Of a DNA stretch of 33,296 nucleotides, positions 10,999 through 17,340 are shown piece by piece. Each line of letters opens with the position of its first letter. The first letter of the stretch is position 1. Source of the stretch: Candidatus Thermoplasmatota archaeon. GTDB lineage: Archaea; Thermoplasmatota; E2; DHVEG-1. The notes under the pieces were generated by a model. It was not told the origin of the DNA. It ran no database searches and was given only the letters and a program-made list of their open reading frames with translations. The translations under genes were made by a program, and so were the position numbers. The stretch is taken from positions 1-33,296 of the forward strand of contig JAWABU010000019.1 of assembly GCA_038884455.1 (NCBI GenBank), given 5' to 3'.

Positions 10999-11049
10999 CA
11001 GGTTTCAACTTCTGCCACTACGTATTCATACTAGGTGGGAGTAAGTCTT

Positions 11050-13617
11050 ATGACTCAACAAGAAGTGAATCTGAAGGTCGCTGAAGCATTCCAGCAAGAT
11101 GTCGGGTATGGCCGAGCACGAATCGATCATCAAACAAGAATAGACCTTGATCTCTCCATAGGAGATGTTATCGAAATAATTGGTACAAAAACCACAGCAG
11201 CATCGGTCTGGCGAGCACATCCATCAGATGAAGGAAAAAGAATTATTCGAATAGATAATCTCACCAGAAAAAATGCTGGAACCGGGCTTGGAGAACGCGT
11301 TCGAATCAAGCGAGCTGAAGTACGAGAAGCACGAGAAGTAATTCTTGCACCACTCATGCCTGAAGGACAACGCATCGAATTTGGCATGGGAATCGATGTT
11401 ATCATCAGAAAAAACCTCCTCCGGCGACCAATCACTAAAGGTGATGAAATCACGGTTCCTGGAATTGCTTTTTTTGGAAACGCCTTACCTTTTATTATCC
11501 TTGACACCAGTCCAAATGGTATCGTTGCAATCAGCGAAAGAACTATCCTCAGAGTAAAAGAAGAAGCTGCGAAAATAGCTGAGGAAGAAGGACCCCGCGT
11601 AAGCTATGAGGATATTGGTGGTCTGCAAAACGAAATTTTAAAAGTTCGAGAGATGATTGAATTGCCCCTAAAACATCCTGAATTATTCGAACGTCTGGGC
11701 ATTGATCCACCAAAAGGAGTATTGCTCCATGGCCCACCAGGAACTGGAAAAACGTTAATCGCGAAAGCAGTAGCAAACGAATCAGGGGCAAACTTTTATA
11801 CAATTAACGGCCCAGAAATCATGAGTAAATTTTATGGACAAAGTGAAGAGAACCTGCGAAAAATCTTTGAGGAAGCACAAAAAAATGCACCTTCGATCAT
11901 CTTTCTTGATGAAATTGATGCTATCGCACCAAAACGTAGTGAGGTTCATGGTGAAGTCGAACGACGAGTAGTGTCACAATTATTGACGCTCATGGATGGT
12001 TTAAAAGGCCGAGGAAAACTCATTGTAATTGGAGCAACAAATCTTCCTGATACTCTAGATCCTGCATTGAGGCGACCTGGTCGTTTTGATCGAGAAATCA
12101 GAATTGATGTTCCCGACAGAAACGGACGAAAAGAAATCTTACAGATTCATACCCGAGGCATGCCAATAAACTCAAATCTTGAACTTTTGCATCCTGGCCA
12201 AAAAATTGAAACTGAAAAAATAGAACAAGTCATCAGACAAGGTACAAAAAAAATCCATGCTTCAGATTTACTAAGAAATTTAGCACGGACTAAAAACAAA
12301 AACAAACGTACTGCTACCGCCGAATACTTAAAAGTTATCTTTAGTCATTATACTGAAGAATTACCTGCAAACTTTGCAGAAAAACTTGTAAAACTTCTAA
12401 CCGACGAAATCATTAACCTGCTGCCTTTTGATTTAGAAGATACTGAAGTCGATCTGAATGCTGAACAACAAATCAATGAACGACTTGAATCTATTGCTGA
12501 GAAACCTGATGAGTTAACAAAAAAGCTGGCAAAAGAAAGCATTCTTGACGAAATCGCTGATATAACGTATGGATTTGTCGGTGCTGATCTGGCTGCACTT
12601 GCACGAGAAGCAGCCATGAACGCACTGCGACGATACTTGCCGGAGATTGATCTGGAAAAACCGATTCCTGTTGAACTATTAGAAAAAATGGAAGTAACGA
12701 TCGAGGATTTTAAAAATGCACATCGCGGCATCGAACCATCAGCGATGCGGGAATTTTTTGTTGAAATACCAAAAGTATCATGGAATGATGTGGGTGGTCT
12801 AGAAGACGTCAAACAGCAATTAAAAGAAGCAGTAGAATGGCCTCTAACCCAACCTGAGGTGTTTAAGCGTATGGGAATTCAAGCACCTCGTGGTATTTTA
12901 CTCTACGGCCCACCAGGAACTGGGAAAACATTGCTTGCAAAAGCAGTTGCCCATGAATCAAAAGCAAATTTTATATCAATTAAAGGACCTGAAGTTCTGA
13001 GCAAGTGGGTCGGGGAGAGTGAAAAAGCGGTTCGAGAGTTGTTTAAAAAAGCACGGCAGGTTGCTCCGACGATTGTATTTCTTGATGAAATTGATTCAAT
13101 TGCTCCTCGGAGAGGATCCTACTCTGGATCCCACGTCACTGAAAGCGTGGTCAACCAGCTTCTAACAAGTATTGATGGTTTGGAAAGTATGCAGGGTGTT
13201 GTTGTTATTGGTGCGACAAACCGACCTGATATTATTGATCCAGGATTGCTACGACCAGGACGATTTGATCGATTATTATTGATACCGGCACCCGATGAAA
13301 AATCGCGATTGGAAATCTTTAAGATTCATACGAAAGAGATGCCTTTGAGAGACGTATCATTAAAAAAACTCGCAGAGCTTACCGCAGGATTTTCTGGTGC
13401 TGATATCGAGAGCGTGTGTCGTGAGGCGGCAATGATTGCACTTCGAGAAAATATCAATGCTAAGGAAGTTACTGAAGAACATTTTAACAAAGCATTAAAA
13501 GCAGCTCGTGCAAGTATTACTGATGAATTGATGAAATATTATACAAAAGTGACCGAAAGTCTTACAACCGAGCTAGCCAAAAAGGATAAAAAAGAACGAG
13601 ACATTCAATATATGTAA
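11050..13617 (+). CDS. CDC48/VAT-type AAA+ ATPase with a long insertion in ring 1
   Basis: An 855-residue two-ring unfoldase of the CDC48/p97/VAT family, acting in the cytoplasm on protein complexes and probably feeding the proteasome. In order: the N-domain (about 1-180), D1 with Walker A GPPGTGKT at 228-235 and Walker B IIFLDE at 283-288, then D2 with Walker A at 620-627. Both rings have intact arginine-finger regions (RRPGRFDRE and LRPGRFDRL). Archaeal VAT is about 745 residues. The excess sits between HTRGMPI (ending at 373) and [16 protein letters not shown] (from 499), a charged helical insertion of about 120 residues. The C-terminus ends QYM, which resembles but does not fully match the proteasome-binding HbYX motif. 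The ATG at 11050 is favoured over GTG 11035 by spacing from AGGTGGGAG. Confidence 0.95.
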
Positions 13618-13653: not shown

Positions 13654-13890
13654 ATGAAAGTACTTGAGAGCGACCTCAGAGGAAAAACAGTGATGAGTGA
13701 AGAAGGTTTATACCTCGGCATTCTAAGAAATTCTCTGGTAGATGAAAAAACTGGGGAATTGGTCAATGTCCTTGTTGAGCCGTCTGAAGATATTGATCCT
13801 CGTCTCTATCATCTTGATGACATCGGTCATCTTGTTTTTCCGTTTGAGTCAATCAAATCTGTAAAAGATGTTATCATCATCGGTAATTAA
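13654..13890 (+). CDS. PRC-barrel domain protein
   Basis: A 78-residue protein consisting of one PRC-barrel domain. It opens with VLESDLRGKTVMSEEGLYLG, then has a GELVNVLVEPS strand and a closing VFPFESIKSVKDVIII, all typical of the fold. Such short archaeal PRC-barrel proteins are widespread; in Haloferax the PRC-barrel proteins CdpB1 and CdpB2 bind SepF and act in cell division. Membership of that functional group is an inference here. It lies 36 bases downstream of cdc48, behind GGAGGGA, and directly borders the presumed origin. A T-rich tract follows. Confidence 0.85.
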   Translation: MKVLESDLRGKTVMSEEGLYLGILRNSLVDEKTGELVNVLVEPSEDIDPRLYHLDDIGHLVFPFESIKSVKDVIIIGN

Positions 13891-13920
13891 AATTGTTCAA
13901 CTGCCGTAGTAGTAACGATC

Positions 13921-13949
13921 GGTTTTTTCTTTTTTCATTTTACTCTTTG
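13921..13949 (+). terminator. T-rich terminator after the PRC-barrel gene
   Basis: A stretch composed of T runs of three to six, interrupted by C and A, lies about 30 bases after the stop codon. It would end the cdc48-PRC transcript before the origin-like region. Confidence 0.45.
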
Positions 13950-14039
13950 TTAGTTGAGAAAGGAAAAATATACACTATAGATTTTACTTCAACAAAATGA
14001 AATTTTTAGACAAAAGAACTTAAAAATCTCTTTAGAGGG

Positions 14040-14060
14040 ACCCCTTTATTTCCACTGGAG
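14040..14060 (-). promoter_or_regulatory. Origin recognition box (ORB) for Orc1/Cdc6
   Basis: Read on the minus strand the site is CTCCAGTGGAAATAAAGGGG followed by T. This carries both halves of the archaeal ORB: the mini-ORB core CCAGTGGAAA and the downstream G-string GGGG(T) at the expected distance. It lies about 270 bases before the initiator gene. Confidence 0.7.
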
Positions 14061-14331
14061 CCAATGGTTGGGATGTAGCTGTAAAAATAGAAAATTGTGA
14101 TGCAATATAGCCAGAAATATATGCGATCGTAAGTATTTTAATATTTCGATTTTTAAAATTATATTATTCAAAAAATTAAAAAATAAAATCGGAAAACTTA
14201 TTTTTTCCACACGAAATCATCCCCTCTCTGCTTCTGGGCACCAACAGGTATAATTCAAGGCAGGAAACGTGGATAAGTTTATTATATAGAACTTGTTTAC
14301 CTAACTTTTACCAACACAGACAAAGGGAGGT

Positions 14332-15594
14332 GTGTTTTTTACGATCAAACAAGAGAAAGACATCTTTGACTCACTATTGGAACTTGACGGTTTGTTTGTC
14401 AACCGAGAAGTCATGAGACCAACATATATGCCAGAAATTCTCCCACACCGAGAAAAAGAAATCAAAGACCTTGCGACTATTCTCGTACCTGCATTGAAAA
14501 ACGAAGCGCCATCAAACATTTTTATTTATGGAAAAACAGGAACTGGAAAGACCGCAGTCGTTAAATTTCTAGGAAAAGAATTGCTCAAAAAAGGTCAACA
14601 ATCAAAAACAAATGTCAATTTTATTTATATCAATTGCGAAGTTGTTGACACCCAATATCGATTGTTACAGAATATCGCAAATCAATTTATCAACGAATGG
14701 AACGAACACGTTCCTTTCACAGGTTGGCCAACTGATGAGGTATACAGCAAAGTCAAAACTATGATGGAAAAAAAGAAAGGTGTAACTGTTATCGTCCTGG
14801 ATGAAGTTGACAAACTGAAAGGAGACGAAGCCCTCTATAATTTAACGAGAATGAACAGCGACATGCAGCATGCACGTGTTTCGGTTATCGGTATTTCAAA
14901 TGATTTAAAATTTACAGAATTTTTAGATCCGCGAGTAAAATCGAGCCTTGGCGAAGAAAATATGATTTTTTATCCATATGATGCTGAGCAGCTTCAAGAT
15001 ATTTTGAAGGCCCGTGTATCAACGGCATTAAAACCCGGGGTCTTAGAACCAGATGTTATTCCGCTCTGCGCAGCGCTGTCCGCCCAAGAACATGGTGATG
15101 CACGTCGAGCGCTTGATCTACTGCGGGTAGCTGCTGAAATCGCCGAACGAAATAAAGAGAAAAAGGTTACTCGGTCTCACGTTCGTCAAGCTCAAAATAA
15201 AATTGAGCTCGATCGTATAACTGAAGTTGTTCGCACGTTACCTAATCAATCAAAGCTTATTCTTTACGCAGCGATTTTGCTTGACCGTCAAAATAAAAAA
15301 GACGGAGTCAAACAAGCGATGACCACTGGTGGTGTTTATGAGATTTACAAAGAATTATGCAAAAAAACCAGATACAATACTCTGACGCAACGCCGAGCCG
15401 CGGATTTAATATCTGAACTTGACATGCTCGGCATCATTACTGCTCGTGTTATTTCAAAAGGTCGGTATGGGCGGACAACAGAGATTGAGATTGCATCGAC
15501 GTCTAAAGATCTCATCAATGTTCTCCAAGAAGATGAGTTATTTAAAGATTTAACTAAGTATAAAATGAAAGCACAAGCTCGTCTAGCACTCTAA
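14332..15594 (+). CDS. orc1/cdc6: Orc1/Cdc6 replication initiator
   Basis: A 420-residue AAA+ protein that recognises origins and starts DNA replication. Visible elements are the N-terminal RPTYMPEILPHREKEI segment, Walker A GKTGTGKT at 67-74, Walker B VIVLDEVDKL near 160, and the sensor region VIGISNDLKF. The C-terminal winged-helix DNA-binding domain, about residues 300-400, includes TGGVYEIYKELCKKTRYNTL. Length is typical. The start is a GTG, with GGGAGG only a couple of bases upstream; no better in-frame ATG exists near the N-terminus, so initiation could be weak or tuned. It directly follows the origin-like region, as in most archaeal chromosomes. Confidence 0.95.
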   Translation: MFFTIKQEKDIFDSLLELDGLFVNREVMRPTYMPEILPHREKEIKDLATILVPALKNEAPSNIFIYGKTGTGKTAVVKFLGKELLKKGQQSKTNVNFIYINCEVVDTQYRLLQNIANQFINEWNEHVPFTGWPTDEVYSKVKTMMEKKKGVTVIVLDEVDKLKGDEALYNLTRMNSDMQHARVSVIGISNDLKFTEFLDPRVKSSLGEENMIFYPYDAEQLQDILKARVSTALKPGVLEPDVIPLCAALSAQEHGDARRALDLLRVAAEIAERNKEKKVTRSHVRQAQNKIELDRITEVVRTLPNQSKLILYAAILLDRQNKKDGVKQAMTTGGVYEIYKELCKKTRYNTLTQRRAADLISELDMLGIITARVISKGRYGRTTEIEIASTSKDLINVLQEDELFKDLTKYKMKAQARLAL

Positions 15595-15696: not shown

Positions 15697-17340
15697 ATGA
15701 ATCAAGAGCCCACAATTGTACAAGTCTTAAAAACAGAAGAACAATTAAAATATTTATCGGGAACACAGAAGCAAGCTTGTACAACTAAAGAAGATGCACA
15801 TACAACACTTGAAAATTTATATCAAACCGTTTTTGAAAATTCAGCCGTCGCAATTACTATTACCGATGCACAGGAGCGGATTATTTCTTGGAATAAATAT
15901 GCTGAGCAGCTTCTTAATATCCAATATAACGATGTTTTTCTGCAGCCAGTTCACACGTTATATCCTGAAGAGGAATGGAAAAAAATACGTTCGCAAAACA
16001 TTCGACAAAAGGGAATGCAGCACCATCTTGAAACAAAAATACTTCGGAAAAATAAACCGCCCTTGGACGTAGATTTGTCAATCAGCGTTATAAAGAACAA
16101 AGATGATCAAATTACCGGGTCAATTGCGATCATCAAGGATATCAGTGAAGAAAAAAGGATGAAACAAGCGTTACAAGCATCGGAGCAGAGGTTTAAAAAT
16201 CTCTACGAGTATGCTCCTGTTCCCTATCATACATTGACACCTGAAGGCATTATTACTGATGTGAATCAGAAATGGTGTGAGGTTTTTGGTTACACGAAAG
16301 AGGAGGTACTTGGAAAATCGATTTTTACTTTCATCATCCCTGAAGAGCAGCAGGCGGCACAGGTTTCGTTTCAACAGAAACAACAAAGTAAGCAGCTATA
16401 CACCGAGGGACACGAACGCCGTTTTAAAACGAAAAACAGCGACGAACGCATCTTTGTAACCAGAGATTTTTTCATTTATGCTCCAGATTCAACACTAATT
16501 TCTGTGCAAACAACACTCGAGGATATTACTGAACGGAAGAGAACAGAGGCGGCGTTAAATACGGCACATCAACTCCTCAGTTCACTGAATCAGGAACTTG
16601 AAAGAAAAGTCGAGGAACAAACAAGGGAGGTTAGAAATCTTCTGAAACAAAAAGATGATTTTATCAATCAACTCGGGCATGATTTAAAAAGTCCATTAAC
16701 CCCTATTGTATCCCTTCTACCCCTTGTTATGAGTACTCCAAATCATCCAAAAAACAAAGAACGACTTGAGGTTATTTATCGCAACGCGCTGTATATGAAA
16801 AATTTGGTGAATGATACCTTGAAACTCGCTCGATTAAATTCTCGTTCGATACAATTTACACTTTCGCCAACACCACTTAAGCTGCTTGTTGATGATGTGA
16901 TCAGAGAGTATAGAATGCAGCTCGAAGAAAAGAGAATTGAATATCAGCAGATCATAGATTATGACCTTGTGGTTATGGCAGATGCTCTTCAGCTCAAAGA
17001 GATGTTCAGTAATCTCATTTCTAATGCTATAAAATTCACAGGATCTGGAGGTTTTTTGAAGATTCAAGCGCAGGCGCAAGACGGCGATTCCTTTGTTCTT
17101 GTATCTGTAACTGACACTGGAATTGGTTTGACCGATGAACAAAAAAAATGTCTCTTTCAGGAATTTTATAAGGCAGACTCTTCGAGGCATGATATTAGTT
17201 CAAGTGGTCTTGGATTATCTATTTGTAAGCGCATTATTGAACGACATGGAGGAAAAATCTGGGTTGAAAGTTCAGGTCTTGGGAAAGGTGCAACATTTTA
17301 TTGTACAATCCCAGCACAAAAAACAAAAAGGAACTCGTAA
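15697..17340 (+). CDS. Cytosolic PAS-PAS sensor histidine kinase
   Basis: A 547-residue sensor kinase without membrane segments. After a short N-terminal helix it has two PAS domains (about 45-150 and 165-285; the second starts RFKNLYEYAPVPYHTLTPEG), then a coiled coil and a HisKA domain with the H-box NQLGHDLKSPLTP, where His328 is the phosphorylation site. The HATPase domain follows, with N-box EMFSNLISNAIKFT, G1 DTGIGL and G2 SGLGLSICKRII. All catalytic boxes are intact. The ATG is preceded by GTGGTGAG. The response regulator starts 32 bases downstream, so the two form a signalling pair; the stimulus is unknown. Histidine kinases in archaea are generally considered bacterial acquisitions. 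Confidence 0.93.
   Translation: MNQEPTIVQVLKTEEQLKYLSGTQKQACTTKEDAHTTLENLYQTVFENSAVAITITDAQERIISWNKYAEQLLNIQYNDVFLQPVHTLYPEEEWKKIRSQNIRQKGMQHHLETKILRKNKPPLDVDLSISVIKNKDDQITGSIAIIKDISEEKRMKQALQASEQRFKNLYEYAPVPYHTLTPEGIITDVNQKWCEVFGYTKEEVLGKSIFTFIIPEEQQAAQVSFQQKQQSKQLYTEGHERRFKTKNSDERIFVTRDFFIYAPDSTLISVQTTLEDITERKRTEAALNTAHQLLSSLNQELERKVEEQTREVRNLLKQKDDFINQLGHDLKSPLTPIVSLLPLVMSTPNHPKNKERLEVIYRNALYMKNLVNDTLKLARLNSRSIQFTLSPTPLKLLVDDVIREYRMQLEEKRIEYQQIIDYDLVVMADALQLKEMFSNLISNAIKFTGSGGFLKIQAQAQDGDSFVLVSVTDTGIGLTDEQKKCLFQEFYKADSSRHDISSSGLGLSICKRIIERHGGKIWVESSGLGKGATFYCTIPAQKTKRNS

Follow-up and report, generated by a model that had tools for sequence, protein, structure and literature searches.

Origins of replication bounded by origin recognition boxes (ORBs) have been described in several archaeal groups. 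In Methanomassiliicoccales, which also belong to Thermoplasmata, ORBs with a G-string lie beside orc1/cdc6.1, one of two orc1/cdc6 genes (PMC4153887). The oriC1 of Haloarcula hispanica has two inverted ORBs, each with a G-string, that flank an AT-rich region next to cdc6, and mutation of either G-string abolishes oriC1 function (PMC3936714). Sulfolobus oriC1 has the order ORB3-DUE-ORB2 (DUE, duplex unwinding element) with an essential ucm element between the ORBs that is bound by UBP; in the view of the discoverers, Desulfurococcales and Sulfolobales acquired the ubp gene recently (PMC12141716). Here we examined a 33,296-nt stretch of DNA from a Candidatus Thermoplasmatota archaeon (contig JAWABU010000019.1, positions 1-33,296; hereafter the window), in which a pair of ORBs precedes an orc1/cdc6 gene. 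Judged from its sequence and that of its relatives, the region 14039-14226 is very probably a chromosomal replication origin of the oriC1 type, and the main active origin of this archaeon would be located here. The elements concerned are the following.

14039-14060, minus strand: distal ORB, full-length with G-string, CTCCAGTGGAAATAAAGGGGTC; the orthologous box occurs in those relatives of the family that have enough upstream sequence
14061-14204, no strand: inner region of the putative origin, of near-constant length and conserved sequence
14130-14207, no strand: AT-rich block, putative DUE; at 88.5% AT it is unsurpassed among the 78-mers of the window, and the family shows conservation of its sequence
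14132-14135, plus strand: AGTA box 3, the sole intact box in the window of an array that has three boxes in relatives
14205-14226, plus strand: proximal ORB, TTCCACACGAAATCATCCCCTC, in the opposite orientation to the distal ORB; the core is kept and a C-string (CCCC, 14221-14224) replaces the G-string
14278-14286, plus strand: TATA-like element of the putative orc1 promoter, TTTATTATA, conserved in the alignment of relatives
14332-15594, plus strand: orc1/cdc6 initiator gene of the Orc1-1 type (Pfam Cdc6_C and Cdc6_lid)

The layout of inverted ORBs around an AT-rich region is the same as in Haloarcula hispanica oriC1, except that in the window one G-string is naturally replaced. It also resembles the Sulfolobus origin, in which the Orc1-1 boxes are likewise inverted on either side of an AT-rich DUE and have an extra conserved sequence between them (PMC12141716). 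ORB2 of M. luminyensis, GTTCCAGTGGAAATAAAGGGGT, has almost the same sequence as the distal box of the window (PMC4153887). The ORBs listed for Methanomassiliicoccales have G-strings almost throughout and a spacing that varies from 39 to 256 bp, whereas the pair in the window is ~150 bp apart and has a C-string on the orc1 side. Compared with the common archaeal motif of Ori-Finder 2/DoriC, TCCA[CG]T[TG]GAAA[TC][GA]AAGGGGT (PMC4164010), the distal ORB is an exact fit at every position, whereas the proximal ORB deviates at two places, having CAC as its middle triplet where the motif has [CG]T[TG] and differing in the G-string. The consensus core TCCANNNGAAAY is present in both boxes alike. Since the Methanomassiliicoccales ORBs and the common motif have already been published, the origin proposed here belongs to a known kind; the link to the classical archaeal initiator code drawn in an earlier note on this DNA was thus right but not new (PMC4153887). 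A partial literature search found no publication that treats a replication origin together with Orc1 in Thermoplasmatota. With this locus, a family of uncultivated Thermoplasmatota has a precisely located origin that can be tested, and the classical Orc1-ORB code would extend to this family.

The distal ORB stands out by its sequence alone. Direct reading of the minus strand at 14040-14060 gave the letters that the earlier note had reported, and the C at 14039 (plus-strand A/G context, GACCCC) is the extra base of the conserved element GGGGTC. The note's description of this box as a near-perfect ORB also holds: the pattern CTCCAGTGGAAAYNNAGGGGT has one match in the window, with 0 mismatches, against 0.02 per window expected by chance at ≤3 mismatches. 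A search for further ORBs covered the 1.70 Mb genome (1,703,580 bases in 61 contigs), in which no site other than the distal ORB has ≤2 mismatches to TCCANNNGAAAYNAAGGGGTC. At the 3-mismatch level there are six other matches to TCCANNNGAAAYNAAGGGGTC, compared with six for reversed-pattern controls at ≤3 mismatches.

Among 60 relatives, TCCANNNGAAAYNAAGGGGTC was found at ≤1 mismatch 58 times besides the match in the window, versus 0 for the reversed pattern, and in 52 genomes of the order there were 51 ORB matches (the window's own included) versus 1 in the control. Nearly every genome of the window's family with enough upstream sequence has two inverted ORBs upstream of orc1, the minus-strand box mostly ~250-350 bp and the plus-strand box ~75-145 bp before the gene. 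Core-to-core distances measured in the family range from 146 to 153 bp, with a single genome (187 bp) outside this range. The explanation that the boxes are chance similarities, or that this is functionless AT-rich intergenic sequence, can draw on the proximal box, which taken alone would not stand out and is not significant against chance. This box becomes significant because the same box recurs at the same place in relatives. With a distal box unique in the genome, the enrichment of 58 versus 0, and both boxes recurring at near-fixed spacing over many genera, the comparative data already refute chance, to which we give practically no probability.

The earlier note had described two weaker box-like sites, one of them inverted, besides the full ORB. 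The inverted site proved to be the proximal ORB at 14205-14226, TTCCACACGAAATCATCCCCTC; the other did not hold up, and a scan of 13891-14331 with the core gave two places only and no third, separate box. As the core is almost a palindrome, each place was found on both strands. The statement that the full ORB including its G-string is kept likewise applies to the orc1-distal ORB and fails for the orc1-proximal one, whose G-string was lost in the clade of the window. The four bases that follow GAAAYNNN in the proximal ORB read CCCC in this clade and GGCC, GGGC, GGGT or GGGG elsewhere; in 28 of 28 sites no base other than G or C occupies the first three of these positions. Genomes with the CCCC form (11 in number) occupy one side of one branch of the Orc1 tree (support 100/97), and the form is fixed within the clade; the parsimonious reading of this distribution is a single event. 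A G+C block that is constant while its strand varies suggests that the AAA+ part of Orc1 may now be indifferent to strand on the proximal side. The altered box would still be bound by Orc1, perhaps through recognition of the G+C block regardless of strand.

The sequence between the boxes is conserved as well. In 17 genera the mean pairwise identity of the inner region was 0.553, compared with 0.439 (standard deviation 0.010) after shuffling, and 28 columns reached ≥90% conservation, compared with 1.9 in the shuffled null. The letters were shuffled within 20-base blocks, a null that keeps local composition and does not keep descent, and shared ancestry accounts for part of the conservation excess. 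The AT-rich block that the earlier note had placed at 14131-14208 is real (87.2% AT); the window maximum of 88.5% AT is reached by the 78-mers starting at 14129-14130.

Relatives carry direct AGTA boxes whose distances from the distal ORB are ~15, 47 and 75 nt, which gives spacings of ~32 and 28 nt. The inner regions contain 46 AGTA on this strand and only 6 on the other, versus 20.9 (standard deviation 4.0, maximum 36) in dinucleotide shuffles, a count taken from 19 related sequences, which are not 19 independent samples. The strict pattern of the second box, ACGTNAGTATWNCCA, had matches in 5 of 36 genomes, at the origin in three of them, and the reversed-pattern control gave 2; with this pattern the 36 genomes showed no sign of hundreds of AGTA-box sites per genome. 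The conserved AGTA boxes of relatives may be sites for some accessory factor. By position only, they are a candidate analogue of the ucm of Sulfolobus.

The genes around the origin and their arrangement in relatives bear on whether the boxes serve replication or only transcription of orc1. The neighbouring genes in the window are listed below.

11035-13617, plus strand: gene for a Cdc48-type AAA ATPase, left neighbour (Pfam CDC48_N, CDC48_2 and two AAA domains), kept beside the ORBs in the family of the window (f1) and in its sister family (f2)
13654-13890, plus strand: small PRC-barrel gene of 78 residues between cdc48 and the origin (PF05239 PRC, E 7e-8)
15697-17340: PAS histidine kinase gene, right of orc1

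The proximal ORB ends ~105 bp upstream of orc1 and ~50 bp before the TATA-like element, so that protein binding there could affect transcription. The boxes might thus be only an autoregulatory operator of orc1, with replication starting elsewhere. In the sister family (G036 and G041), however, the ORB pair stays behind cdc48-PRC with its inverted geometry kept, away from the orc1 promoter, and the boxes do not follow the rearranged orc1. In G036 a PRC-barrel-like C-terminus (read from the alignment) lies directly before the pair as in the window, orc1 is more than 4 kb away on the other strand, and no ORB precedes it; in G041 orc1 lies behind another gene. Because place and inverted geometry were kept while orc1 moved, the ORB pair is a locus of its own and more than an orc1 promoter. 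An operator also has no need of a distal box, an AT block or an inner region of near-constant length. We consider an operator alone very unlikely, though an operator role may exist as a second function. The reading as a replication origin, already put forward in the earlier note, is supported by this comparative evidence, that is, by paired inverted ORBs, constant spacing, a conserved AT-rich interior, an Orc1-1-type gene and the decoupling from the orc1 promoter in the sister family.

The adjacent initiator is of the Orc1-1 type, as its sequence relationships indicate. Its best matches in the Protein Data Bank (PDB) are Orc1-1 of Sulfolobus (Sso; 2qby_A, E 1.6e-109) and ORC1 of Aeropyrum (Ape; 2v1u_A, E 2.8e-105), and the DPRVKSSL and RGRYG stretches align to identical or nearly identical letters in these entries. 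Among public genomes, identity over Orc1 is 67-80% to Thermoplasmatales archaeon SM1-50 (taxonomy Thermoplasmatota, Thermoplasmata) and to other metagenome-assembled genomes labelled Ca. Thermoplasmatota or 'Euryarchaeota'. No Rfam families were found in the window.

A distant second orc1/cdc6 paralogue (27% identity) is present in the genome (G000:C31:8184-9308), and most relatives have one too. This allows the alternative that the locus is of the oriC1 type by descent and is dormant or secondary, the main origin lying elsewhere, for example near the paralogue on C31. Archaea with several working origins or with dormant ones exist, and an extra single ORB occurs upstream of the DP2 gene in the g7 genomes and G018. 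However, no ORB was found upstream of the C31 paralogue, nor was there another in the genome at ≤2 mismatches, and the extra ORBs elsewhere in the family occur singly and not in pairs. That the pair and its interior are both strongly conserved also argues for present use. We therefore regard a dormant or secondary status as unlikely.

Two observations weigh against an active origin at this place. Four single-contig relatives (G026, G006, G001 and G034), each represented by 20 stretches of 20 kb, were analysed for GC, AT and keto skew; GC skew did not differ significantly between the arms (p 0.08-0.85), its sign was inconsistent, and no inflection was shown. The GC skew of G006 (p = 0.08) had its maximum near orc1 and the AT skew of G001 gave p = 0.025; the rest of the 12 tests, uncorrected, were not significant. 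Many archaeal genomes show weak skew, and the outcome is for this reason taken as neutral. The second observation is that the canonical G-string is absent from the proximal ORB, to be compared with Haloarcula, where oriC1 no longer functioned once either G-string was mutated (PMC3936714).

If the locus acts as an origin, Orc1 from the adjacent gene would bind both inverted ORBs, the TCCA ends of which point inward and the G-string and C-string ends outward. From both sides, Orc1 would direct the MCM helicase onto the AT-rich block between the boxes, where the duplex would open. A tentative extension, which we put forward as a possibility with less than even chances, is an asymmetric origin: the proximal G-string would have been flipped (GGGG/GGCC/CCCC) with the G+C block kept and Orc1 blind to strand on one side, and the array of three direct AGTA boxes between the distal ORB and the AT block would serve an accessory origin factor, so that a distantly related lineage would have its own counterpart of the Sulfolobus ucm/UBP. 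Both the flipped G-string and the AGTA boxes may be new, as a partial literature search found no description of them. With one G-string naturally replaced and the change fixed, the locus lends itself to comparison with Haloarcula, in which neither G-string is dispensable. The conserved boxes other than ORBs are relevant to a question raised in PMC12141716, namely whether UBP-like accessory origin factors exist in divergent archaea.

Some relatives have ORBs at other places. In G043, a relative at the class level (L128, 1-5498), the order is DP2, ORB (plus strand), orc1, a signal-peptidase-like gene, DP1 and ORB (minus strand), the genes being named by eye from sequence resemblance. ORBs flanking a replication gene cluster recall the setting of oriC1 in haloarchaea, which has cdc6, sec and pol genes close by (PMC4010727). 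In g7 (L122 G026, L123 G006 and L124 G033) and in G018 (L215), the gene for DP2, the large subunit of DNA polymerase D, is preceded at ~95 bp by one full ORB; the other family members checked, including the genome of the window, lack this box. A family-wide second origin at this site was rejected, as within the family only g7 and G018 have the box. The box could be left over from an ancestral orc1-polD cluster, or it could mark a promoter regulated by Orc1. In G001 (L125, ~2557) an exact full ORB, TCCAATGGAAATGAAGGGGTC, lies far from orc1 in an intergenic position, with a helix-turn-helix-like gene and small genes of uncharacterised function around it, and this site is possibly part of an integrated element with its own origin.
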